IMG/VR virus record: IMGVR_UViG_3300007541_000303
Location: 1-20,666 of that record
Reading direction: 5' to 3' (one strand)
Source of the DNA: a virus
Length of the DNA stretch: 20,666 nt
Position 1 is the first letter of the stretch. Each line of letters begins with the position of its first letter. The notes under the pieces were generated by a model. The model worked only from the letters and a program-made list of their open reading frames with translations. It was not told where the DNA came from and made no database searches. Shown one piece after another: positions 888 to 20,666 of this stretch. The translations under genes and the position numbers were made by a program.

Positions 888-2650
888 TGGCAACAGCAAA
901 CACTTATCTAAGAGTTACTGAACTTGATTTTTCAGGTATTCGAGATAATTTAAAATCATACCTTAGCACTCAATCTCAGTTTCAAGATTACGACTTTGAA
1001 GGTTCTGCTATGGCAGTCCTTCTTGATGTGCTTGCTTATAATACACATTACAATGCATACTATCTAAATATGCTCGCTAATGAGATGTTTCTTGATACTG
1101 CGCAGCAGCGTGACTCAGTTGTATCACGTGCAAAAGAACTGGGTTATGTTCCTGTATCTGCTATTGGCGCAACTGCTAATGTTCAGGTTACATTTACTGG
1201 CGTTGCATCAGGAACAACTCAGTTTACAATTCCAAAGAATTCTAAATTTACAACAACGGTTGATGATGTAACTTATACTTATGTAACACCTGAAGCATAC
1301 AAAGTTGTAAGGAACAACGGCGCATATTCACGCTCAATTAATATTAAAGAAGGCGAGCCACTTACGCATCGCTTTACTGTTGGTGTTGCTGGTCAACGAT
1401 ACATTCTGCCGAATCAGTATATTGATACATCAAGTATCACTGTATTTGTTCAAGAATCCGCCACTGATACTACGCAAACTGAATTTACACGTGCAACGAA
1501 TATCAATCAGGTGTTCTCAACTTCTCCAGTGTATTTCTTAGAAGAAGTTGCTGATCAAAAATATGAAATTCTTTTTGGTTCAGGTGCACTTGGTAAAGAG
1601 GTAAAAAGCGGCAACATTATTATTGTAAGTTATCTTGTTTGTAACGGCAGCGCAACAAATGGTGCTTCTGCATTTAGTGTTGATACATTAAATGTTGGAG
1701 TATCATATTCAGCTGCAACACTGGTAACGAATAGCACTGCTCGTGGCGGTCGTTATCCAGAAACAATTTCTTCAATTAAATTTAATGCTCCACGCAACTA
1801 CCAGACGCAAAACAGAGCGGTAATTAATGAAGACTATCAGCGTATCCTTTTGTCTGAAAACGCCGACCTGCAGTCTGTAGTGGCATTTGGCGGAGAGCAA
1901 GCGAATCCTCCAGTCTATGGTAAGGTGTACATTGCTGTCAAACCTTTCGGCGAAGAGTTTGCTACTCAAAACCGCAAAGCGCAGGTTCGTGCTTCTATTC
2001 TTGATCGTACTCCTCTTGGTATTGATCCAGTTGTAATTGATCCAGACTACACTTACTTGATTCCTAACATTACAACATATTATGACAAAACTAGAACACG
2101 TGTAACAGAAGCTGCGATTGAAGCGAATATTCGTGCAACAATTGCTACATTTGCTACAAACAATCTTGAGCGTTTCGGAAATCGTTTGCGTTATTCTCGT
2201 TTCGTTCGTGCGCTGGACAATGTTACAGTAGGTGAAATTCTTAACAATGATGCAACAATTAATCTAGAAAAGCGTTTTGTTCCAAATGTTAATGCTGCTG
2301 AAAAAGTTGAACTTGCATACAACAACCCTATTCGTCCAGAATCAGTAACATCAACTGAATTTACATACAGCGGTTTCTCATGTTACTTTGATGATGATGG
2401 TTTGGGCAACATCAATATCTACCGCTTTAACAGCGCAAGAGAACGTGTCAATGTTGTTTCTAATGCTGGTACAGTAAATTACGCAACAGGATTAGTTGAA
2501 GTTGAAAATTTTGCTCCAAGCGCATACTCTGATATTCAGATGAAAGTGACTGTTACTCCCGATCGTTTGGATGTTATTCCCGTTCGTGAGCAAATTCTTT
2601 TGATGAACTCTGGAGATGCAGTAATCAGCATTGTTGGTGAGTTAACCTAA
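887..2650 (+). CDS. 6: baseplate wedge protein gp6 (baseplate J-like)
   Basis: This 587-residue protein is close in size to T4 gp6 (660 residues), which forms the dimeric ring linking neighbouring baseplate wedges. The N-terminal region has the features expected of marine gp6: DFSGIRDNLKSYLSTQSQF, then a YDFEGSAMAVLLDVLAYNTH helix and EMFLDTAQQRDSVVSRAKEL (about residues 13-85). This is the baseplate-J-type entry helix bundle. A second conserved block around residues 306-350 (NRAVINEDYQRILLSENADL) corresponds to the region where gp6/J proteins pack in the ring. It overlaps gp25 upstream and the gp7-like gene downstream by one base each (TAATG), so the three are probably translated in tandem. 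No truncation or frameshift is seen. Confidence 0.9.
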   Translation: MATANTYLRVTELDFSGIRDNLKSYLSTQSQFQDYDFEGSAMAVLLDVLAYNTHYNAYYLNMLANEMFLDTAQQRDSVVSRAKELGYVPVSAIGATANVQVTFTGVASGTTQFTIPKNSKFTTTVDDVTYTYVTPEAYKVVRNNGAYSRSINIKEGEPLTHRFTVGVAGQRYILPNQYIDTSSITVFVQESATDTTQTEFTRATNINQVFSTSPVYFLEEVADQKYEILFGSGALGKEVKSGNIIIVSYLVCNGSATNGASAFSVDTLNVGVSYSAATLVTNSTARGGRYPETISSIKFNAPRNYQTQNRAVINEDYQRILLSENADLQSVVAFGGEQANPPVYGKVYIAVKPFGEEFATQNRKAQVRASILDRTPLGIDPVVIDPDYTYLIPNITTYYDKTRTRVTEAAIEANIRATIATFATNNLERFGNRLRYSRFVRALDNVTVGEILNNDATINLEKRFVPNVNAAEKVELAYNNPIRPESVTSTEFTYSGFSCYFDDDGLGNINIYRFNSARERVNVVSNAGTVNYATGLVEVENFAPSAYSDIQMKVTVTPDRLDVIPVREQILLMNSGDAVISIVGELT

Positions 2651-5600
2651 TGGCAGTTCTGGAAAAAATTTCAAAACTGGTTAGAAACCAGTTTCCCGAT
2701 TTTTACAAAGAAGATGGAGAAGGATTCCTTCTCTTCATTCAGGCATACTATGAGTACATGGAGCAGAATGGCAAACTAACCGACGCCATTCGCAACCTTG
2801 AATCATATCGTGATATCAGTACAACCACTGACGAGTATCTAACATACTTCTTTAATACGCTAATGCCTTCGATTCCCGAAGACGTGCTTGCTAACAAGCG
2901 TTTGATGGCGAAATATATTAAAGAATTTAATCTATCACGTGGTACTCTCGCCTCATACAAGTTGTTGTTCCGTACTATTTACAATGAAAGTATCGAACTC
3001 TTTTATCCATCAGATTCTATTCTTAAGGTTTCTGATGGCGACTGGCGTATTGATCAATATCTTGTTTGCAGCTATCAACCAGCAACATATACCTTTATTG
3101 GGAAAACAATCAAAGGAACATCTTCTCAAGCAGAAGCACTCGTAGAAGATGTTGTTCGCCGAACTGTTCGTGGTCGAGATTTGATGCAGATTCTTGTATC
3201 AAATGTTAAAGGTACATTTAATCACTTAGAACCAATTCGTTTACTGTCTGATACAAATGCAACTGGCCACACGCCGATTATTGAAGCTGGCATCAATAAT
3301 GTAACAATTACATCTCCTGGTGGCGAATATCGTAATGGTGATGTTGTTCGTTTGATTTCTCCTGATGTTGGTGAGTTTGCTAAAGTTGTTGTTATTGGTA
3401 CAGTTGACCTTGGTGGTACACTTACATTCTCAATTGAAAATGGTGGTTCAGGTTACACAACTTCAACCAGTAACGGTGGAACAACGATTGAACTAATCGG
3501 AGGCGATGGTTCTTCGCCAGCAAGTTTTGTTATTGGTCAAACGGATATTAATGACACCTTTGCGATTTCAATTAATACTGATCTAATTCAAAGTAACACT
3601 GTTTTTGGATCTATGGCTCCAGTAATTACGAATGCTGATGGTGCGCCAAGAGCAATGAATCCATTTGCGAATGTAATTATCTCAGCAACTGATTATGGTT
3701 TTAGAGAATCGGGCACGGAAGTTCTTGGTAACAGAAGATACAGCGATCATGCGAATGCTGTACTTGTAGTTGCAAACACTACTAATCCAGGAATTACGGT
3801 TGGTGCATCTTTGTTTGGTGTTACTTCAGGTGCTAATGGTACAGTTACAACAATTCGTAGAGCGCATAACGGTACGAATGTTGTTATTGGTGTTGATACA
3901 TACAAAAACTTTACTGGCTCTGAAAAGATAAACATTAGCACTTCTTCTGGTACAACAGTTGGTACAGTTACTTCATTTACAGGTAACACCGCTGGCTGGA
4001 TTCCGCTATCAATTGCAGTTATCTCTGGCCAAGAACTTTCGGTTGGCGATGAAATTCGTGGAAGATACTCAAATGCTATTGGTGTTGTCACTCATGTTGG
4101 CGACGCTAATACAGGTGCATATACTGCACCATCAACTGTAGTTCGTGATGTAATTACATATCGTGTTGCTGCTAACACAAGCGCAAATCTTACCAGTCAG
4201 TTTACTGCTGGACCAATTAAACCGTTTTCTCATTACGAACCAATTGCTTTGGTAACTGCGAACACAACAGTTGGTAATGTTGTAGATTGGTCAGTTACTT
4301 CTAATGGTATTATTGAAAATGTATATACTAAACTTGAAGACGCATTTAATTTCTTAAATACAACCTTCGGCACCATTAGAAAACTATCAAATATTGTTGG
4401 TGGTTCTGGTTACTCACGTGCCCCAACGGTTCGTGTACGATCTAATGATGTTGCTGCGCTTGGTATTGGTGAATCTTGGATTACCATGACCAGTACAGAT
4501 TCAAATCTTAATCTTATCGACACAAGCGATAGATTGCATCAAACGAGCGAACAAGCATTTGGTGATATTAAACAAATCTTCAGCAAACAACTTCAGCCTG
4601 ATGGAGTTACCTATGAAGTTGTTGCACGTGTATGGCAAGATTTCGGCAACCGTGATCCTGATGGAAAAGAATATGCATTGGGCGCAGCAACTTTGAGAAG
4701 AATGGCTGGTTCTTGGATTCCTGGGTATCATACTGATACAAGAACGCTAGATGGAACTGTTAATGTTACCATCACCGCAATTGATGATAGAGGTGTTCTT
4801 GGTAAGAATGCACGTATTAATGCTGGTGTTGGTGCGAACGGTACGATTACTGCGATTCGTACTCTTGACTCTGGTTTCTCTTACAAACAAGGTGAAGAAG
4901 TTATCCTCGAAGCAACGAATCGTCCCCTTGCTACTGGCGGTACAGGCATAATTAAACTTTCAGGTGTTGCAAATGCTGAAGGTTATTATGCAACAACAAG
5001 AAGTCATGTATCAACCGCTCGTGGTTATATTCAAGACGGCAGATATTATCAAGAGTTCTCATACGAAATTATCTCACCAATTTCTTTGCAAAGATATCGT
5101 GACTATGCATTAAAGTTGGTACACCCAGCTGGTCAGGCATTGTTTGGTAAGTTCCGTTCGCAGTCGAATGTTTATGTTGATGTAACTGCAAATACATCGT
5201 ACACTAAGACGCTAATGTCTAATGGTACAATTTCAATTACTAAGACCGCAGCGAATGGTACAGTTGCGATTCAGAATGGTAACAACTATGTTGTAGGCAC
5301 ATCTACCAACTTCTTGGGTGAGTTCGGTAATAAAGCAGTTGCTGGTAGCGTAGAAGTAACAGCAGCAAATTCAACTGTAATTGGTACTGGAACTTCGTTT
5401 ACAAATTATGCAGTTGGCGATTTGTTGCAAGTTGGCAACAACGATTATGTTATTAAGACTATCGCCAACAATACAGTTATGTCAGTAAGACCTGATGTAA
5501 ACTTGAAGGGTGCTTCTTCTAACTCCAGTTACACCGTAAATGGTAAGAGCAGCTTTATCGTAGAATGGGATCCAGGTGCTGGTATTCCAAATCGTTTTGT

Positions 5601-5901
5601 TGAAGTTGGTTTTAGTGCTAACTCGGCAACGAATGTAATTCTAACTGATAACTGGATCTTTGGCACGATTACTGGCGCAAACATTTACTTTGCAAACTCT
5701 CATACTATTGCTGGTTCTTCAACTACATTGACCAGCGAGTTTGCGAACGGTGATGTTATTCTTATTGAAACTGCGCATAAACAATATGACAAACTCGTAC
5801 TAAATAAGGTGAATTCCGCTACTTCTGCAAATCTTGCTTCTAAGTGGGTTAAGGCAGACCTTTCTGGTGCGAATGCTTATTATATTTCAGGAACTTTCTA
5901 A
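2650..5901 (+). CDS. 7: baseplate wedge protein, gp7-like
   Basis: This 1083-residue protein lies between gp6 and gp8 exactly as T4 gene 7 does (T4 gp7 is 1032 residues). Residues 1-115 resemble a segment that in T4 gp7 sits in the C-terminal half: FLLFIQAYYEYMEQ, a helix with IRNLESYRDI, and then GTLASYKLLFRTIYNESIEL. Near residues 820-840, RDYALKLVHPAGQALFGKFR matches the VHPxG segment near the end of T4 gp7. Between and after these lie beta-rich modules with repeated GGSGY motifs (around 3436-3500 and 4393-4440) and a GTGTSF-type module near 5380. gp7 in T4 runs along the wedge and contacts gp8, gp10 and the gp6/gp53 core. The ATG overlaps the gp6 stop, and its own stop overlaps the gp8 ATG. 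The order is well supported; the full domain equivalence is inferred. Confidence 0.78.
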   Translation: MAVLEKISKLVRNQFPDFYKEDGEGFLLFIQAYYEYMEQNGKLTDAIRNLESYRDISTTTDEYLTYFFNTLMPSIPEDVLANKRLMAKYIKEFNLSRGTLASYKLLFRTIYNESIELFYPSDSILKVSDGDWRIDQYLVCSYQPATYTFIGKTIKGTSSQAEALVEDVVRRTVRGRDLMQILVSNVKGTFNHLEPIRLLSDTNATGHTPIIEAGINNVTITSPGGEYRNGDVVRLISPDVGEFAKVVVIGTVDLGGTLTFSIENGGSGYTTSTSNGGTTIELIGGDGSSPASFVIGQTDINDTFAISINTDLIQSNTVFGSMAPVITNADGAPRAMNPFANVIISATDYGFRESGTEVLGNRRYSDHANAVLVVANTTNPGITVGASLFGVTSGANGTVTTIRRAHNGTNVVIGVDTYKNFTGSEKINISTSSGTTVGTVTSFTGNTAGWIPLSIAVISGQELSVGDEIRGRYSNAIGVVTHVGDANTGAYTAPSTVVRDVITYRVAANTSANLTSQFTAGPIKPFSHYEPIALVTANTTVGNVVDWSVTSNGIIENVYTKLEDAFNFLNTTFGTIRKLSNIVGGSGYSRAPTVRVRSNDVAALGIGESWITMTSTDSNLNLIDTSDRLHQTSEQAFGDIKQIFSKQLQPDGVTYEVVARVWQDFGNRDPDGKEYALGAATLRRMAGSWIPGYHTDTRTLDGTVNVTITAIDDRGVLGKNARINAGVGANGTITAIRTLDSGFSYKQGEEVILEATNRPLATGGTGIIKLSGVANAEGYYATTRSHVSTARGYIQDGRYYQEFSYEIISPISLQRYRDYALKLVHPAGQALFGKFRSQSNVYVDVTANTSYTKTLMSNGTISITKTAANGTVAIQNGNNYVVGTSTNFLGEFGNKAVAGSVEVTAANSTVIGTGTSFTNYAVGDLLQVGNNDYVIKTIANNTVMSVRPDVNLKGASSNSSYTVNGKSSFIVEWDPGAGIPNRFVEVGFSANSATNVILTDNWIFGTITGANIYFANSHTIAGSSTTLTSEFANGDVILIETAHKQYDKLVLNKVNSATSANLASKWVKADLSGANAYYISGTF

Positions 5902-7667
5902 TGGCTGTTTATAGATACGCTACAAAAGACCTTTCAATCACTAACGCAGAGGCATTTAAAGCAGCACTCAGCGCAAGTGATGGTAGATCAACTAAGAATT
6001 CTGTTATTCTTTATGTTTGTATCGGTAGAACAAATCCTTGGCCAAACGAACCAACGCCTGAAAATCCACCAGACAACGAACAGTATTTGCATTATGAAGT
6101 AATGCGTAGAATGATTGGTGCTAAAAAAGTAACCACTGGTGATGTAAGTCATGTAATTCCAAGATATGACTGGACTTCTGGTACGGTCTATTCAATGTAT
6201 CGTGACACCGATACAGACATGTATGAGCGTGCTTGGTATGTTCTTACTGATGAAAATAATGTGTACATTTGTTTGTACAATAACAAAGGTGCGCAGTCAA
6301 CAATTAAACCTACTGGATTCTCAACGCTTCCATTTACAACCTCTGATGGTTATACATGGAAATATTTGTACACCATTTCGTTGGGCGATGCGCAAAAGTT
6401 TATGACTGCGGTTCATATGCCAGTCAAAACTATTACTGCTGCTGATGGTTCTATTGAATCTTCTCGTCAGCTGGCGGTACAAAACGCAGCAGTGAATGGT
6501 GCGATTCTAGTTGTCGAAACAAATCAAACTGGTTCGGGATATTATCAAGTTGCGAATGCCGCAGTTGTTTCAGCAGGCGTTAATACTCTTAGAATTTCTG
6601 CTACGGCAAATCCAGAAACGACTGATAATTTTTACAACGGTTCGAGCGTATATGTTACGGACGGAACTGGTGCTGGACAGTTGCGTAGAATTATCAATTG
6701 GTCGGGTTCTACTAGAACGCTGACTGTAAACACTGCTTTTGCTACAGTATGTAACACAGACTCACGTGTTATTATTTCTCCAACCGTTACGATTATCGGC
6801 GATGGTCAAGGAGCAAAGGCATATTCATTAGTTGATACAAGTACAGGAGCAATTGCTAATGTTGCTGTAATTAATGTAGGTTCTGGTTATACACGTGCGC
6901 AAGCATTAATTACTGCAAACAGCACTCACGGTGCTGGCGCAACAGCAAATGTAATCATTTCTCCGCTTGGTGGTCATGGCCATGATCCGATTCGTAATCT
7001 TCATGGCGATAAGCTGATGCTTAATGTTCAGTTTAATGGTTCTGAAGGTCAATCAAATACTGGTAAAGGATACGTTCCTTCAAACACTGAGTTTAGAACA
7101 ATCAGCATATTGCGTGATCCAGTTCTAAAGGTTGATGCAAACAACGATATCGTTTCTGTTGAACATATTGCTAACACTTCTAATTCTCCAGCAACTTTGC
7201 GTTTGACAACTCGTTTTGGTATTTCTTATTTGAGTCCAGAACTTATTGGTAACATTGTTCCTAACAATATTCTTACCAATTTGCGCAACTATAATCGTGC
7301 AGTATCTGGTGAACTTGAATTTGTAACGCAGTTTGGTACAGCTGCAAGAACAGCAGCTGCTCTTTCTAACGCAGTACTTGCTGCAAACTGTAATGTTGTA
7401 TATGCAAGAGATGATGAAACAGTTGACGATTCATACTTTCAAACTCTGTATATAAATAGCGTAGAAAGTTACAGCGATTATCCTGCTTTTACTAAAGATG
7501 ATGTTCTGTTAAAGAGCACCAGTGCAACTCCATTGGCTACTGTTGAATCAATTAGTGGTCCAGAGGCAAATACATTCTCTGGAGAAATTATCTTTACAGA
7601 AAATGTACAAGCAGTAACTCGTGACCCAGACCAAATTGAAGATATTAAGATCATTCTAGATTTCTAA
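5901..7667 (+). CDS. 8: baseplate wedge protein gp8, enlarged
   Basis: The product is 588 residues, against 334 in T4 gp8. Conserved landmarks appear in the T4 order. IGRTNPWPNE (about residues 43-52) corresponds to the T4 GRSEPW segment, and HVIPRYDW (about 84-91) to VIPRRDW. SDGYTWKYLYTI (about 151-162) corresponds to GDGYVWEYLFEI. NTEFRTISILRDP (about 394-406) corresponds to FRQISIITNP. The C-terminus, SGEIIFTENVQ then EDIKIILDF, parallels the T4 end. Most of the extra length lies between residues about 190 and 385 and contains beta-rich GSGY modules near 6530 and 6880. gp8 forms a dimer in the wedge and binds gp7 and gp10 in T4. AGGA at 5889-5892 precedes the ATG, which overlaps the gp7-like stop. 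Confidence 0.88.
   Translation: MAVYRYATKDLSITNAEAFKAALSASDGRSTKNSVILYVCIGRTNPWPNEPTPENPPDNEQYLHYEVMRRMIGAKKVTTGDVSHVIPRYDWTSGTVYSMYRDTDTDMYERAWYVLTDENNVYICLYNNKGAQSTIKPTGFSTLPFTTSDGYTWKYLYTISLGDAQKFMTAVHMPVKTITAADGSIESSRQLAVQNAAVNGAILVVETNQTGSGYYQVANAAVVSAGVNTLRISATANPETTDNFYNGSSVYVTDGTGAGQLRRIINWSGSTRTLTVNTAFATVCNTDSRVIISPTVTIIGDGQGAKAYSLVDTSTGAIANVAVINVGSGYTRAQALITANSTHGAGATANVIISPLGGHGHDPIRNLHGDKLMLNVQFNGSEGQSNTGKGYVPSNTEFRTISILRDPVLKVDANNDIVSVEHIANTSNSPATLRLTTRFGISYLSPELIGNIVPNNILTNLRNYNRAVSGELEFVTQFGTAARTAAALSNAVLAANCNVVYARDDETVDDSYFQTLYINSVESYSDYPAFTKDDVLLKSTSATPLATVESISGPEANTFSGEIIFTENVQAVTRDPDQIEDIKIILDF
7451..7458 (+). promoter_or_regulatory. T4-type late promoter box inside gp8 (TATAAATA)
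   Basis: This is an exact match to the T4 late promoter core recognised by the phage sigma factor gp55. It lies in the 3' part of gp8, about 220 bp upstream of the 1990-codon gene. A start about a dozen bases downstream would give a leader of roughly 205 bases for that gene. It also encodes ordinary residues of gp8, so chance occurrence is possible. Confidence 0.4.
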
Positions 7668-17423: not shown

Positions 17424-17759
17424 ATGGCGGCAAAAGCAAATATTGTAGTCGATCAAGGAGCAGATTTTTCTACAACAATCACTGTTACTGATGCGAACGG
17501 AGATATTGTAGATCTTTCTGGCTATACTGCGGAAGGGCAAATTCGCAAACACTACACATCATCGACTAAAGTTGATCTTATAGCGTCTTTTGGTACGCCG
17601 AGAACTGACGGATTATTGACACTTTCTCTTTCCGCAGCAAACACTTCAGCTATGGAAGCTGGTCGTTATGTTTATGATGTTAATTTAACAGCATCTGGTG
17701 GTACAGTTTCTAGAATGGTTGAAGGTATTTGTACTGTTACTCCTCGTGTAACGCAGTAG
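17424..17759 (+). CDS. small beta-sandwich-like structural protein (BppU N-terminal-like pattern)
   Basis: This 111-residue protein follows the fibre gene after an 18-base gap with a G-rich ribosome binding site (CAGGGGT, 17409-17415). The layout is a series of beta strands: IVVDQGADFSTTITV, then DLSGYTAEGQIRKHY, then LLTLSLSAANTSAM, then AGRYVYDVNLTAS and a closing strand GICTVTPRV. The Q-G-A-D...DLSGYT...IRK pattern resembles the N-terminal baseplate-attachment domain of BppU-like proteins of other phages. I also recall this as a common small gene in marine T4-like phages. A capsid, neck or fibre decoration role is possible; the position favours a fibre or tail accessory. No catalytic motif is visible. 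Confidence 0.7.
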   Translation: MAAKANIVVDQGADFSTTITVTDANGDIVDLSGYTAEGQIRKHYTSSTKVDLIASFGTPRTDGLLTLSLSAANTSAMEAGRYVYDVNLTASGGTVSRMVEGICTVTPRVTQ

Positions 17760-17769
17760 GAGAAACGCA

Positions 17770-18003
17770 ATGTCAGACTTCAAAGTAAAACTGTCCCCAA
17801 CAAATACAAGTTTTACTCTTAAGAATACAACTGTAAGCCCAACACGTCTTGATACGCTTAATGACGTGAGCGAACCAGATGCTGCAAAAGTTGATGGTGC
17901 GATTCTTATCTATGATGCAGACAGCGATACATATGTTTTATCACAAGCAGTGTTTGAATCTGACGGAAATGGAAATTATATTTTGAAAGGTGGGGGTTTC
18001 TAA
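17770..18003 (+). CDS. small linker-like structural protein
   Basis: The product is 77 residues, with AGGAG at 17758-17762 eight bases before the ATG. The middle, RLDTLNDVSEPDAAKVDGAI then LIYDADSDTYVLS, is a motif that in marine phage fibre proteins often appears inside longer chains as a repeated linker; here it stands alone as a gene. It ends in a glycine-rich tail (KGGGF). A structural or fibre-adaptor role is inferred from that motif and from the neighbours. The stop overlaps the next ATG (TAATG), and the G-rich 3' end doubles as the next gene's ribosome binding site. Confidence 0.65.
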   Translation: MSDFKVKLSPTNTSFTLKNTTVSPTRLDTLNDVSEPDAAKVDGAILIYDADSDTYVLSQAVFESDGNGNYILKGGGF

Positions 18004-18413
18004 TGGCAAATAATGTCATTATTTCAATCAGAACATCTCAGACTACAGATACTCCTGCCAGTCTTGCTAATGGCGAACTTGCATATTCATACTCTTCTGA
18101 CAAACTATATATTGGTAAGACTGCCAATTCAAGCGTTGCGCCTGTTGTAACATATATCGGCGGCAAAGTTATTGTTGATAAGGTTGCTAACCTAGAAGCA
18201 TATTTGTTTAGCGGTGCTGGACAAATTACAACAGCAAATGTATTGGTTACAGATACTATTAAATATCAAACTGGTGCATATGCTAATAATGGTGTGATGT
18301 ATGTCAAGCGAAGTGGATCTGTAGATTTTGCGACTGGCTCTATGGGAAGTCTGCTACAAATAGCAGCAAATGGTGTACCAATTTTTGATGAACTAAATGG
18401 TGGAATATATTAA
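18003..18413 (+). CDS. fibre-head-like protein (Mtd-N-like entry motif)
   Basis: The product is 136 residues. Residues 1-40 have the layout of the N-terminal domain seen in Mtd-like and many phage fibre proteins: an IRTSQTT strand, a turn with P, then LANGELAYSYSSDKLYIGKT. The two later fibre genes in this window show the same layout (LQTGEVAVNLFDRKIYVGNG and ITAGEIALNTRDGKLF). The remainder is short and beta-rich (VDFATGSMGSLLQIAANGVP), ending with FDELNGGIY, comparable to the IIDGGTY end of the 455-residue fibre protein. It may be a short tip or adaptor. Start overlaps the preceding stop; AGGTGGGGG immediately upstream gives the ribosome binding site. Confidence 0.65.
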   Translation: MANNVIISIRTSQTTDTPASLANGELAYSYSSDKLYIGKTANSSVAPVVTYIGGKVIVDKVANLEAYLFSGAGQITTANVLVTDTIKYQTGAYANNGVMYVKRSGSVDFATGSMGSLLQIAANGVPIFDELNGGIY

Positions 18414-18415
18414 AC

Positions 18416-18724
18416 ATGGGCGAATGGAAGGATGCGGAAGAAATTCTTCACATATATGATCAACAAACAGAACGACAAATAATTGAACTGAACAAAATTA
18501 TTGTTGGTCTAAGAGCAAGAATTTACCATCTAGAACAACAGCTTGAAGAAGCTGAGCGAGTTCCTGTTCCAAAATCTGTAATTAGGCAGATTGTAGAGCT
18601 TGAGCATAAGATCAGAAAGCAGGAAAAAGACATTGAATACTACAGAAAATTTGTTGCGCCCCAAGTAATTATAAATAAAGAAAACAAAGAAAAGCCAACT
18701 CGTAGGGGTGGCATACCAAAATAA
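18416..18724 (+). CDS. coiled-coil protein preceding a fibre gene
   Basis: The product is 102 residues, starting two bases after the previous stop; its ribosome binding site is weak (GGTGGA at 18399-18404). Two helices with heptad-like hydrophobic spacing are clear. The first runs over residues 10-47 (RQIIELNKIIVGLRARIYHL, then EQQLEEAE). The second runs over 55-82 (VIRQIVELEHKIRKQEKDIE). A PVPKS break separates them, and a basic tail follows (NKEKPTRRGGIPK). This could form an antiparallel hairpin or a parallel oligomer. I do not recognise a family. Lying just before the 455-residue fibre gene, it mirrors the small coiled-coil gene before the S74 fibre and could be a fibre assembly or connector protein. 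That role is inference from position. Confidence 0.7.
   Translation: MGEWKDAEEILHIYDQQTERQIIELNKIIVGLRARIYHLEQQLEEAERVPVPKSVIRQIVELEHKIRKQEKDIEYYRKFVAPQVIINKENKEKPTRRGGIPK
18670..18677 (+). promoter_or_regulatory. T4-type late promoter box before the 455-residue fibre gene (TATAAATA)
   Basis: This is an exact TATAAATA inside the 3' end of the coiled-coil gene, 64 bases before the fibre ATG at 18742. A transcript starting about a dozen bases downstream would carry a leader of roughly 50 bases including the AGGAG at 18729-18733. Placement relative to the gene is typical for T4-like late promoters. Confidence 0.5.
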
Positions 18725-18741
18725 TAACAGGAGCGTCCGAA

Positions 18742-20109
18742 ATGGCATCTATTATTAAACTAAAGCGCAGTTCTACTACAGGTGCTGTGCCATCGCTTCA
18801 GACAGGCGAAGTTGCTGTTAACTTATTTGATCGAAAGATCTATGTAGGTAATGGTGCTGGCTCAACTGCTATTGGCGGTGAAGACTTCCGACTTACTACA
18901 CAGGCTTCTGGTTCTGAAGGCGCATACCTCAAACTGCTTGGCGAAAGTGTACTTTCAACCAATACCGTACTTCTTTCTGCAGGCGAAGGGATTAACATTA
19001 ATCGCCTTGCTAATGGTACAATTACTTTTGCTGGTGAAGATGCAAGCTCTTCTAATAAGGGTGTTGCTTCTTTTTCTGACACCAACTTTACTGTATCTTC
19101 AGGCGATGTTTCTCTTTCAACCGACATTTCCGTTAGTGGACAGCTAAATGTTGGTGAGAATGTTGTTGTAACTGGCAACGGTTCAGTTGGTGGCACATTT
19201 ACTTCTACAGGACAAGCTACTTTTTCTAGCGGCATTGATGTTGATGGTACTGCTGCTCTAAACGCAATTACATGTACCACTCTTGGCGCAAACGGTAATG
19301 TTACTATTGGCGGCACGCTAACTACAACTGGGCTTACCACACTCAACGGTGGTATTACTGCTGACTCTGGCGCATTTACCGTAGCAGATACAACAGGTAA
19401 CATTCACACTAATGGTACTTTGGATGTAGATGGCAATTCTACGCTAAATGGTACTTTAAGCGTTGATGGTTCTTCTGCTCTCAATGCTGTAACCGCAACT
19501 ACAATCCAAGCCAACGGTGCAATTACTGGTTCAAGCACTCTGACTGTTACTGGTTTGACTACGCTGAATGGCGGTATTACTGCTGACAGTGGTGCGTTTA
19601 CTGTTGCTGACACTTCAGGTAACATTGGAACTACAGGTACTCTGACTGTTACTGGACTTACCTCGCTGAATGGTGGTATCGCAGTTGACTCCAATGCATT
19701 TACTGTTGCTGGTGATGGCTCTGGTGACACTGTTATTGCTGGTCAGTTGAATGTTGGTGAGAATGTTGTTGTAACAGGTAACACCGCTATCGGCGGCAGT
19801 CTTACTGTTGATGGTAATCTGACCGTTGAAAGTGCGCTGACTTATATCTCATCTTCTACTGTATATACCGATGACGGTATGTTCAAGCTGTCTTCAAATA
19901 ACGCAGCTGACTCTGTTGACTCTGGTATCTATGCTAAGTATATTGATGGTGCAACTTCAAAGTATGCTGGTTACTTCCGTGATGCTACGGATGGCGTGTT
20001 TAAGTTCTATAAGGAACTTCAGTCTGAACCTGCAAGTACAGTTGATGTTAATGGCACTGGCTATGCTCTCGCTCAGGTTGACATGATAATTGATGGCGGC
20101 ACGTACTAA
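18742..20109 (+). CDS. repeat-rich fibre protein (Mtd-N-like head)
   Basis: The product is 455 residues, with AGGAG at 18729-18733 setting the ATG at 18742. Residues 1-36 (IIKLKRSSTTGAVPSLQTGE, then VAVNLFDRKIYVG) match the Mtd-N-like entry domain of phage fibres. Next is a GEDASSSNKGVASFSDTNF segment, nearly the same as one in the S74 fibre. A shaft of short beta repeats follows, including three TGL(T)(T/S)LNGGI...AFTVA units and two GQLNVGENVVVTGN units. The C-terminal 90 residues (SSTVYTDDGMFKLSSNNAAD, then YAGYFRDATDGVFKFY) form a distinct globular end closing with MIIDGGTY. It has no S74 domain. It is probably a tail or head fibre facing the host. A terminator follows directly. Confidence 0.8.
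   Translation: MASIIKLKRSSTTGAVPSLQTGEVAVNLFDRKIYVGNGAGSTAIGGEDFRLTTQASGSEGAYLKLLGESVLSTNTVLLSAGEGININRLANGTITFAGEDASSSNKGVASFSDTNFTVSSGDVSLSTDISVSGQLNVGENVVVTGNGSVGGTFTSTGQATFSSGIDVDGTAALNAITCTTLGANGNVTIGGTLTTTGLTTLNGGITADSGAFTVADTTGNIHTNGTLDVDGNSTLNGTLSVDGSSALNAVTATTIQANGAITGSSTLTVTGLTTLNGGITADSGAFTVADTSGNIGTTGTLTVTGLTSLNGGIAVDSNAFTVAGDGSGDTVIAGQLNVGENVVVTGNTAIGGSLTVDGNLTVESALTYISSSTVYTDDGMFKLSSNNAADSVDSGIYAKYIDGATSKYAGYFRDATDGVFKFYKELQSEPASTVDVNGTGYALAQVDMIIDGGTY
19138..19782 (+). repeat. paired GQLNVGENVVVTGN repeats in the fibre gene
   Basis: The 14-residue unit is encoded at 19138-19179 and again at 19741-19782, both in frame. A 26-base stretch is identical between them (19147-19172 and 19750-19775). 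A related unit, GQLNVGENIVVSGN, lies at 16410-16451 in the S74 fibre gene. The two copies flank the triple repeat region, so recombination between them would delete about 600 bases in frame. Confidence 0.8.
19327..19719 (+). repeat. three TGLTTLNGGI...AFTVA repeats in the fibre gene
   Basis: Copies lie at 19327-19404, 19549-19626 and, partly diverged, 19651-19719. Copies 1 and 2 are almost identical at the protein level (TGLTTLNGGITADSGAFTVA then DTxGNI) but differ at many third codon positions. Copies 2 and 3 share a 17-base identical run at their 5' edge (19537-19553 and 19639-19655). All keep frame; spacing is 74 and 34 codons. Confidence 0.85.
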
Positions 20110-20124
20110 ATAACTGCAAAAGAG

Positions 20125-20164
20125 ATGGGGGAGCATATCTCTTTATAGAGAGCTCCCCCATTTT
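20125..20164 (+). terminator. intrinsic terminator after the 455-residue fibre gene
   Basis: A perfect 10-bp stem, ATGGGGGAGC at 20125-20134 with GCTCCCCCAT at 20152-20161, encloses a second 5-bp stem, TCTCT at 20138-20142 with AGAGA at 20147-20151. The inner loop is TTAT, with a three-base bulge on the 5' side only. A short T run follows (20161-20164). It begins 15 bases after the fibre stop codon. The T tract is short, so some readthrough is plausible. Confidence 0.85.
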
Positions 20165-20171
20165 ACATTTA

Positions 20172-20185
20172 GGTCTACATAGACC
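20172..20185 (+). promoter_or_regulatory. short palindrome in the leader of the last gene
   Basis: GGTCTACATAGACC is a 6-bp inverted repeat with a two-base centre. It lies between the terminator and the ribosome binding site (AGGAA, 20198-20202) of the gene at 20212. It could be a minor RNA hairpin or a protein site; nothing identifies a binder. Confidence 0.25.
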
Positions 20186-20211
20186 CTGACCACAACTAGG
20201 AAGTCATAGAT

Positions 20212-20666
20212 ATGGCATCGGTCGTCAAGATCAAGCGTTCCTCAGTACAGGGGAAAGCACCCACAACTAGCGACATTACAGCTGGAGAAATCGCTCTTAA
20301 TACAAGAGACGGGAAACTATTCTCTAGTGATGGCACAGCTGTATTTGAAGTCGGCGCAAATCTACACTCATTATCTGTTGGTACAGGCGGAATTTCCGTC
20401 GGGAATGGAGCATTTACTCTTCCAACAACAGATGGTGTAGCAGATCAAATTCTTGTAACTGACGGCAATGGTGTTCTTCAGTGGAGAAACCAGTCTGGCG
20501 GTTCTGCTCTTGCATTTAAACAATATAGTTATATTGCTGCAAACAATCAATTAACATTTACTGGTGTTGATAATTTTGGATCAACGCTTGGTTATATTGA
20601 AGATAAAATTTCTGTATATCTAAATGGTGTTAAACTTCTTGCTAACACTGACTATACTGCAACCAA
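20212..20666 (+). CDS. fibre protein with Mtd-N-like head (partial, 3' end outside window)
   Basis: The open frame runs 151 codons from ATG 20212 to the window end without a stop. AGGAA at 20198-20202 is the ribosome binding site. Residues 1-35 (MASVVKIKRSSVQGKAPTTS, then ITAGEIALNTRDGKLF) match the entry domain of the preceding 455-residue fibre, so the two are tandem paralogues at their N-termini. The middle, DGVADQILVTDGNGVLQWRN, is a common fibre-tip motif. The end, FGSTLGYIEDKISVYLNGVK then LLANTDYTAT, is the NGV.L...DYT module widespread in phage fibre proteins. The first part uses more GTC, GGG and CCC codons than its neighbours. A tail fibre or host-contact role is likely; which fibre is unknown. 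Confidence 0.75.
   Translation, partial: MASVVKIKRSSVQGKAPTTSDITAGEIALNTRDGKLFSSDGTAVFEVGANLHSLSVGTGGISVGNGAFTLPTTDGVADQILVTDGNGVLQWRNQSGGSALAFKQYSYIAANNQLTFTGVDNFGSTLGYIEDKISVYLNGVKLLANTDYTAT

Follow-up and report, generated by a model that had tools for sequence, protein, structure and literature searches.

The closest described counterparts of the fibre locus analysed here include fibre genes of phages T4, CC31, and BPP-1. In T4, the gp36 trimer attaches to gp37 at the latter's N-terminal region (excerpted text of PMC3004832), and the binding is between the C-terminal end of gp36 and the N-terminal end of gp37 (excerpted text of PMC9603124). The gp37 protein starts with a domain that we call a K-type head, and gp36, encoded just upstream, ends in QDFGYY. 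The same features are seen in CC31, whose gp37 carries a K-type head and is preceded by a gp36 that ends in QDFGTY. Each fibre of BPP-1 ends in Mtd (excerpted text of PMC3567102), a distal protein that starts with an Mtd_N head (PF18454), and the protein encoded before it, Bbp9, ends in ADLGGIA, which is a tail of the DxG form. Bbp9 was not found named as the binding partner of Mtd in excerpts from open-licence PMC papers, and the excerpt of the phage 7-7-1 fibre paper does not mention Mtd. A joint of this kind between two proteins has been shown in T4 only; elsewhere, we infer it.

The DNA examined here, hereafter called the window, is an IMG/VR fragment of 20,666 bases. Because the window is the entire record, nothing downstream of it can be read. 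Its principal genes are as follows.

501-887: gp25-like, T4-type baseplate gene
887-2650: gp6-like, T4-type baseplate gene
2650-5901: gp7-like wedge protein, whose PHROG name is just 'baseplate wedge subunit'
5901-7667: gp8, T4-type baseplate gene
3′ of gp8: phrog_358 protein of 1990 aa, followed by a phrog_473 protein of 69 aa
13857-17405: S74-chaperone fibre
17424..17759, + strand: LtfC-like protein, 111 aa, T4-GC 211 family of Kyanoviridae, the conserved anchor of the locus
17770..18003, + strand: Z, 77 aa, ending LKGGGF; tail only, with no head found; precedes A in relatives
18003..18413, + strand: A, 136 aa, ending NGGIY; head at about 18003-18140, plus tail
18416..18724, + strand: B, 102 aa, charged and coiled-coil-like, with weak matches of coiled-coil type; syntenic between A and C
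18742..20109, + strand: C, 455 aa; head at about 18742-18880, repeat body of variable length, conserved last ~100 aa, tail IDGGTY
20212..20666, + strand: D, 151 aa readable; head at about 20212-20361 and the start of a variable tip

The LtfC-like protein matches phrog_3304 'L-shaped tail fiber protein assembly' (E 8e-26) as well as PF23926 LtfC (E 5e-4, under the cut-off), and it is matched in 107 isolate records of Kyanoviridae and relatives that infect Synechococcus, Prochlorococcus, Pelagibacter, and Methylophilales. In isolates, the locus is flanked by gp8/VrlC/GC112 on one side and by neck genes on the other. The fibre genes 3′ of the LtfC-like protein adjoin the neck genes directly in DSL-LC03 and Melnitz-1, and thus the locus sits between gp8 and gp13. 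This is the position of the Kyanoviridae fibre locus in P-HM1, HTVC008M, Melnitz-1, and DSL-LC03, where it lies between VrlC/GC112/GC211 and gp13. As in the window, P-HM1 and Melnitz-1 carry tail-only, head-plus-tail, and head-only genes in a row, although the gene numbers in these four loci differ from those of the window. Synechococcus phage DSL-LC03 encodes Z and A as a single fused protein. Searches of isolates by tblastn with A, Z, and C gave no match and no close homologue; scans of viral contigs in which the LtfC-like protein, A, and D served as queries yielded 73 loci.

Two further observations concern the fibre genes of these loci. The S74 fibre and C have modules in common (60% identity over 53 aa) with repeated QLNVGEN-type segments, and this similarity suggests exchange between fibre genes of the locus. 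In one relative (L003, 18311-20262), two neighbouring paralogues of 322 and 325 aa, both containing PPPMSGTVSGY, follow an Mtd_N-headed fibre.

An N-terminal head of ~45 residues is common to A, C, and D, as the first-pass annotation of this DNA had proposed. In BLASTP comparisons, the first ~50 residues of C align with those of A (E 6e-5) and of D (E 5e-8); A against D gives E 0.32 with no alignment of the heads. Comparison by hhalign of profiles built from non-redundant homologues joins all three pairs, with probabilities of 96.9 for A-C, 89.5 for A-D, and 99.4 for C-D. Because none of 60 column-shuffled controls reaches the observed score for any pair, the head is real, well above chance, and the possibility of a chance motif is ruled out. 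This homology supports a shared N-terminal module of the kind that the annotation had called a common attachment head.

Whether these heads merit the description 'Mtd-N-like' depends on the gene. The best Pfam Mtd_N score in the window is 18.4 bits against a cut-off of 26.3 bits, and it occurs in C only (18754-18858); A and D give no match to this Pfam family. When profiles are compared with those of true Mtd_N heads, the C/D-type heads reach probabilities of 45-76 with none of 60 shuffles as high, whereas 7 of 60 shuffles are as high for the A head. By these comparisons, C and D appear to be remotely related to Mtd_N, and a direct relation of A is unproven. The window therefore differs from BPP-1, whose Mtd carries the Pfam domain itself. 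True Mtd_N heads are carried instead by the next fibre gene in relatives; all eight members of the corresponding alignment (A5) have such a head, and the alignment matches Mtd crystal structures at 6e-19. Neither the K-head profile nor the A profile had a significant match among PDB sequences. Residues 1-119 of D match the start of CC31 gp37 (E 7e-3, among the matches listed), and the gp37 proteins of T4 and CC31 align within our alignment of K-type heads (A4). In this respect D resembles the distal protein of a fibre of the gp36/gp37 type, with a K-type head at its N-terminus.

Structure prediction adds only modestly to this picture. In the AlphaFold2 model of D, head residues 1-50 have a pLDDT of about 92 (chain mean 72.8), and the best structural matches of the head are the trimerisation domains of collagen XV/XVIII (Z 5.0-5.4 over 49-55 residues), at about 6% identity and with no sequence relation shown. 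Next come phage hyaluronate lyases and Mtd, with Z values of 2.3-2.8. The model of A is moderate (mean pLDDT 61), with a VIA-align peak Z of 3.8 and collagen XVIII rows at 3.1-3.5. Matches common to the A and D models are few and weak, and the models are of moderate quality; they bear only weakly on whether the heads have different folds, which would have refuted the first-pass annotation. Foldseek with both models gave no match at E <= 0.001, with Mtd and collagen XVIII chains at the top of the lists. These fold matches are weak, and at most they suggest that the head may be a kind of small domain that trimerises.

In relatives, the three genes differ in how far they are conserved. The order A, C, D is retained in all 53 loci that have two or more heads, 38 of which have all three. 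The nearest head in another locus comes from the same position in 72 of 72 cases, a count that is partly circular because position was assigned by best match to the A, C, and D of the window. All 44 complete homologues of A are 126-140 aa long with a conserved C-terminus, which excludes the earlier suggestion that the 136-residue A is a truncated gene; close relatives that seemingly lack A do have it, without an ATG start. Homologues of C range from 314 to 768 aa, with identities of 0.71 in the head and 0.69 over the last 100 aa and a middle that varies in length. In contrast, D spans 134 to 2425 aa, with a mean pairwise identity of 0.76 in the head versus 0.26 in the rest. Its bodies and tips are unrelated between viruses, and of A, C, and D, only the tip of D is swapped. 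In the window, D is open at the end of the record, and thus its C-terminus is unseen. Two loci (L007 and L011) have two D genes each, and the first D lacks a tail. Relatives also have another gene, headed by a true Mtd_N domain, such that a 'family of three' describes the window but undercounts the set. Gene order in the locus is thus invariant among relatives, but the tips of D are not. A fixed order, a constant A, conserved ends of C, and a variable D indicate fixed, non-interchangeable parts with one swappable end rather than a repertoire.

The first-pass annotation also held that the three genes diverge completely after the head. The bodies do diverge in this way. At the C-terminus, however, A and C both have GG-x-[FY], an ending also found in Z; D usually has no such ending. 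More generally, proteins encoded just 5′ of head genes end in one of two tail forms, GGx[FY] or DxGx[VLIF]. The endings of Z, A, and C in the window are upstream endings as in T4 gp36 and, by this likeness, would take part in docking.

We scored these endings in 1336 complete genes of the loci collected before the hold-out described below, leaving out incomplete genes, with the C-terminal patterns T1 (GG.{0,3}[FY]S?) and T2 (D.G.?[VLIF][ASTV]?). Redundancy was removed by merging sequences that are 70% identical over their last 40 residues, both here and in the next-gene count given below, and a charged coil gene such as B was skipped when deciding which gene precedes a head. The K heads sampled are those reached through scans with other queries. 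With these patterns, which were picked after looking at part of the same data, a tail is present in 43 of 50 non-redundant proteins encoded before K-type heads (42 GGx[FY] and one DxG) and in 16 of 19 encoded before A-type heads, or 59 of 69 when the two are pooled. True Mtd_N heads, which we call R heads, are preceded by a tail in 49 of 66 cases (44 DxG and 5 GGx[FY]). Of 600 other complete genes, 24 have a tail, and several of these 24 themselves lie before an unscored head or a locus end. The DFGYY and DFGTY endings of gp36 in T4 and CC31 are caught by neither strict pattern and were scored as misses in this set.

The reciprocal count gives the same association. The next gene could be read for 64 non-redundant K-headed proteins: in 31, a tail is paired with a head in the next gene (including 4 looser DxG endings), and 22 have no tail and no head next. 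The exceptions are 4 proteins with a head next but no tail and 1 with a tail but no scored head next; in the remaining 6, the tail is followed by a coil gene. Fisher's test on this table gives 5e-11 with the six tail-before-coil rows left out.

A strict one-to-one code, wherein GGx[FY] would go with K heads and DxG with R heads, was rejected. It is broken by the 5 of 66 R-head donors with GGx[FY] and by Acj61, whose gp36 ends in LDYGEF and precedes a K head. In seven loci (L089, L093, L094, L100, L105, L109, and L113), an Mtd_N-headed gene is directly preceded by another that encodes an Mtd_N-headed protein of ~85 aa ending in SIDGGTY (or TF), which breaks a strict pairing of head and tail types.

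Both patterns were fixed in writing before hold-out data were collected from 34 prophage-type loci (bacterial genome contigs) and from isolates. Strict tails occur in 19 of 45 upstream genes compared to 11 of 542 others (3e-16), and with a looser ending also admitted, the counts are 26 of 45 compared to 15 of 542, which correspond to recalls of 42% and 58%. The isolates were picked for diversity: 14 of the best 40 of 66 R-head records, and 5 of the best 40 of 310 K-head records. For the 14 isolates with Mtd_N heads, the annotated upstream gene has a strict tail in 7 and a loose one in 1; those without are AH02 (a near miss, NLGGLA), S-SSM7, S-CAM1, S-CAM3, S-SCSM2R, and RVTF4. A tail lies directly upstream of the K head in 3 of 5 isolates; passing over one small gene in S-B05 raises this to 4 of 5. 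In the 34 genome contigs, the nearest upstream frame has a strict tail in 8, a loose tail in 8, and none in 16, and 2 have no such frame. These counts show that the association between tail and head is strong but not universal. It recurs in T4, BPP-1, podoviruses, and prophages.

In eight of the genome contigs (L170-L173, L179, and L181-L183), the motif that ends proteins encoded ahead of Mtd_N heads is often doubled (DYGLIT...DYGSIA), with the two copies about 10 residues apart. This doubling may relate to the two Mtd trimers per fibre in BPP-1.

At position A, the head and the incoming tail change together. In five loci (L024, L025, L062, L063, and L068), a ~170-aa domain with the motif DYLWKK replaces the A head, the C-terminus of A itself is kept, and the protein before A has an LSIE-like end without a GG tail. 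In two others (L065 and L067), the DYLWKK domain is found on an added protein ending in GGEDGF, and A retains a K-type head. The protein before the DYLWKK domain has an ALNSDDxxTxLSxE-like end in these loci. It is possible that the DYLWKK domain and the LSIE-type end before it form a second head/tail pair.

Given these observations, we consider it reasonably probable that Z, A, C, and D assemble tail-into-head, in the order of their genes, into a single trimeric fibre whose exchangeable tip is D. The fact that tails are usual just before head genes suggests that the gene products plug end to end. Under this proposal, A, C, and D would be successive segments of a tail fibre, or a baseplate-edge fibre, of a marine T4-like phage, and the N-terminal head of each segment would accept the tail at the C-terminus of the preceding gene's product. 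This tail would close the protein with the form [ILV]-[DN]-x-G-x-[hydrophobic], to which a further small residue may be added. Z, with a tail only, would be the base; A and C, with head and tail, would be links; and D, with a head and a swappable body, would be the tip, or a link to the following Mtd_N-headed gene where D ends in a tail. B, a small protein, may act as a helper or at a joint. The genes would then stand in order of assembly, as for T4 gp36 to gp37. T4 has one such joint within genes 34-38, whereas the window would have three or more, along with a tail-only starter, a coil gene, and a location between gp8 and gp13. Several observations speak against a segmented fibre: the R-headed genes of S-SSM7, S-CAM1, S-CAM3, and S-SCSM2R that lack an upstream tail, the modest recall in the hold-out, the lack of strict type pairing, the tailless first D genes of L007 and L011, and the position of B between A and C, which has to be passed over in the counts.

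Head and tail could instead be unlinked, wherein the head only starts trimerisation, the GGx[FY]/DxG tail is a C-terminal folding cap or chaperone tag, and their adjacency reflects an inherited cassette order. The shortness of the tails, the common ancestry of many loci, and the modelled resemblance of the head to collagen trimerisation domains would fit this explanation. However, we judge it unlikely, given that D proteins lack a tail when no head follows, that head and tail change jointly at A, and that the association recurs from T4 to prophages, all of which count against the two being unlinked.

Another arrangement would place separate trimers side by side on the baseplate rim or neck, with each head binding one common baseplate site. 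The T4 proteins gp9, gp10, gp11, gp12, and wac are fixed in this manner. The location of the isolate locus between gp8/VrlC/GC112 and the neck genes would agree with such an arrangement, in that the gp8-gp13 slot of T4 holds 9-10-11-12-wac. It would nonetheless leave the tails before heads unexplained, and T4 gp37, which has the same head, is bound by gp36 and not by the baseplate in the T4 excerpts cited above. We therefore regard side-by-side trimers as decidedly unlikely. The receptor-binding repertoire envisaged in the first-pass annotation, in which A, C, and D would each be an alternative adhesin with the same attachment head, draws on the shared head and the swapped D bodies, but is very unlikely given the fixed order, the constant A, the conservation of C at both ends, and the lack of exchange between positions.

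Returning to the segmented fibre, its logic might extend well beyond this locus. As a general rule, a C-terminal D-x-G-x-hydrophobic tail would be received by the Mtd_N/gp37-type head of the next protein, in marine phages and prophages as well as in T4 and BPP-1, such that fibre connectivity could be read from gene order; at least one other tail/head pair (LSIE-type end, DYLWKK head) would replace it in some relatives. We consider the case for and against this full rule to be evenly balanced.

Candidate expression signals lie between these genes.

18670..18677, + strand: TATAAATA, T4 late-promoter-like, inside the conserved VIINKE terminus of B and 72 nt upstream of C
20122..20164, + strand: GC-rich terminator-like hairpin between C and D
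20172..20185, + strand: 5-bp hairpin with a constant AYAT loop, 26 nt before the start of D, also found in relatives

The sequence TATAAATA, which we take to resemble the T4 late promoter, is present in the 150 nt that precede C in 22 of 26 distinct loci, in most of them inside the conserved end of B. The corresponding counts are 13 of 34 loci for D and 1 of 25 for A, and 3% of random windows contain it. The gap between C and D folds at -36.0 versus -17.6 for shuffles. The stem of the AYAT hairpin has 92.8% of cells paired across 29 sequences, compared to 66.1% when shuffled, and 40 double-change cells versus 13.1 (0 of 500 shuffles as high); sliding the partner strand abolishes the signal. 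A covariance model of this hairpin gave strong matches only before D (46 sources in one search and 8 records in another), with weak matches before D-like genes in three loci (L032, L029, and L044). Rfam had no match in the window, the AYAT hairpin included. This element resembles a regulatory leader that serves the tip gene, D.

As a kind of structure, the segmented tail-into-head fibre is already known from T4. In excerpts from open-licence PMC papers, we found no description of the tail/head rule, nor of a multi-joint array, the shared tail motif, or its reach to Mtd. Few joints between phage fibre subunits are understood as to how the partners find each other. If the rule is true, then sequences would allow assembly order, tip identity, and segment boundaries to be predicted across large groups of marine phages that have not been cultured, and it would offer a hint at how Mtd, the model protein for tropism switching, may attach to Bbp9.
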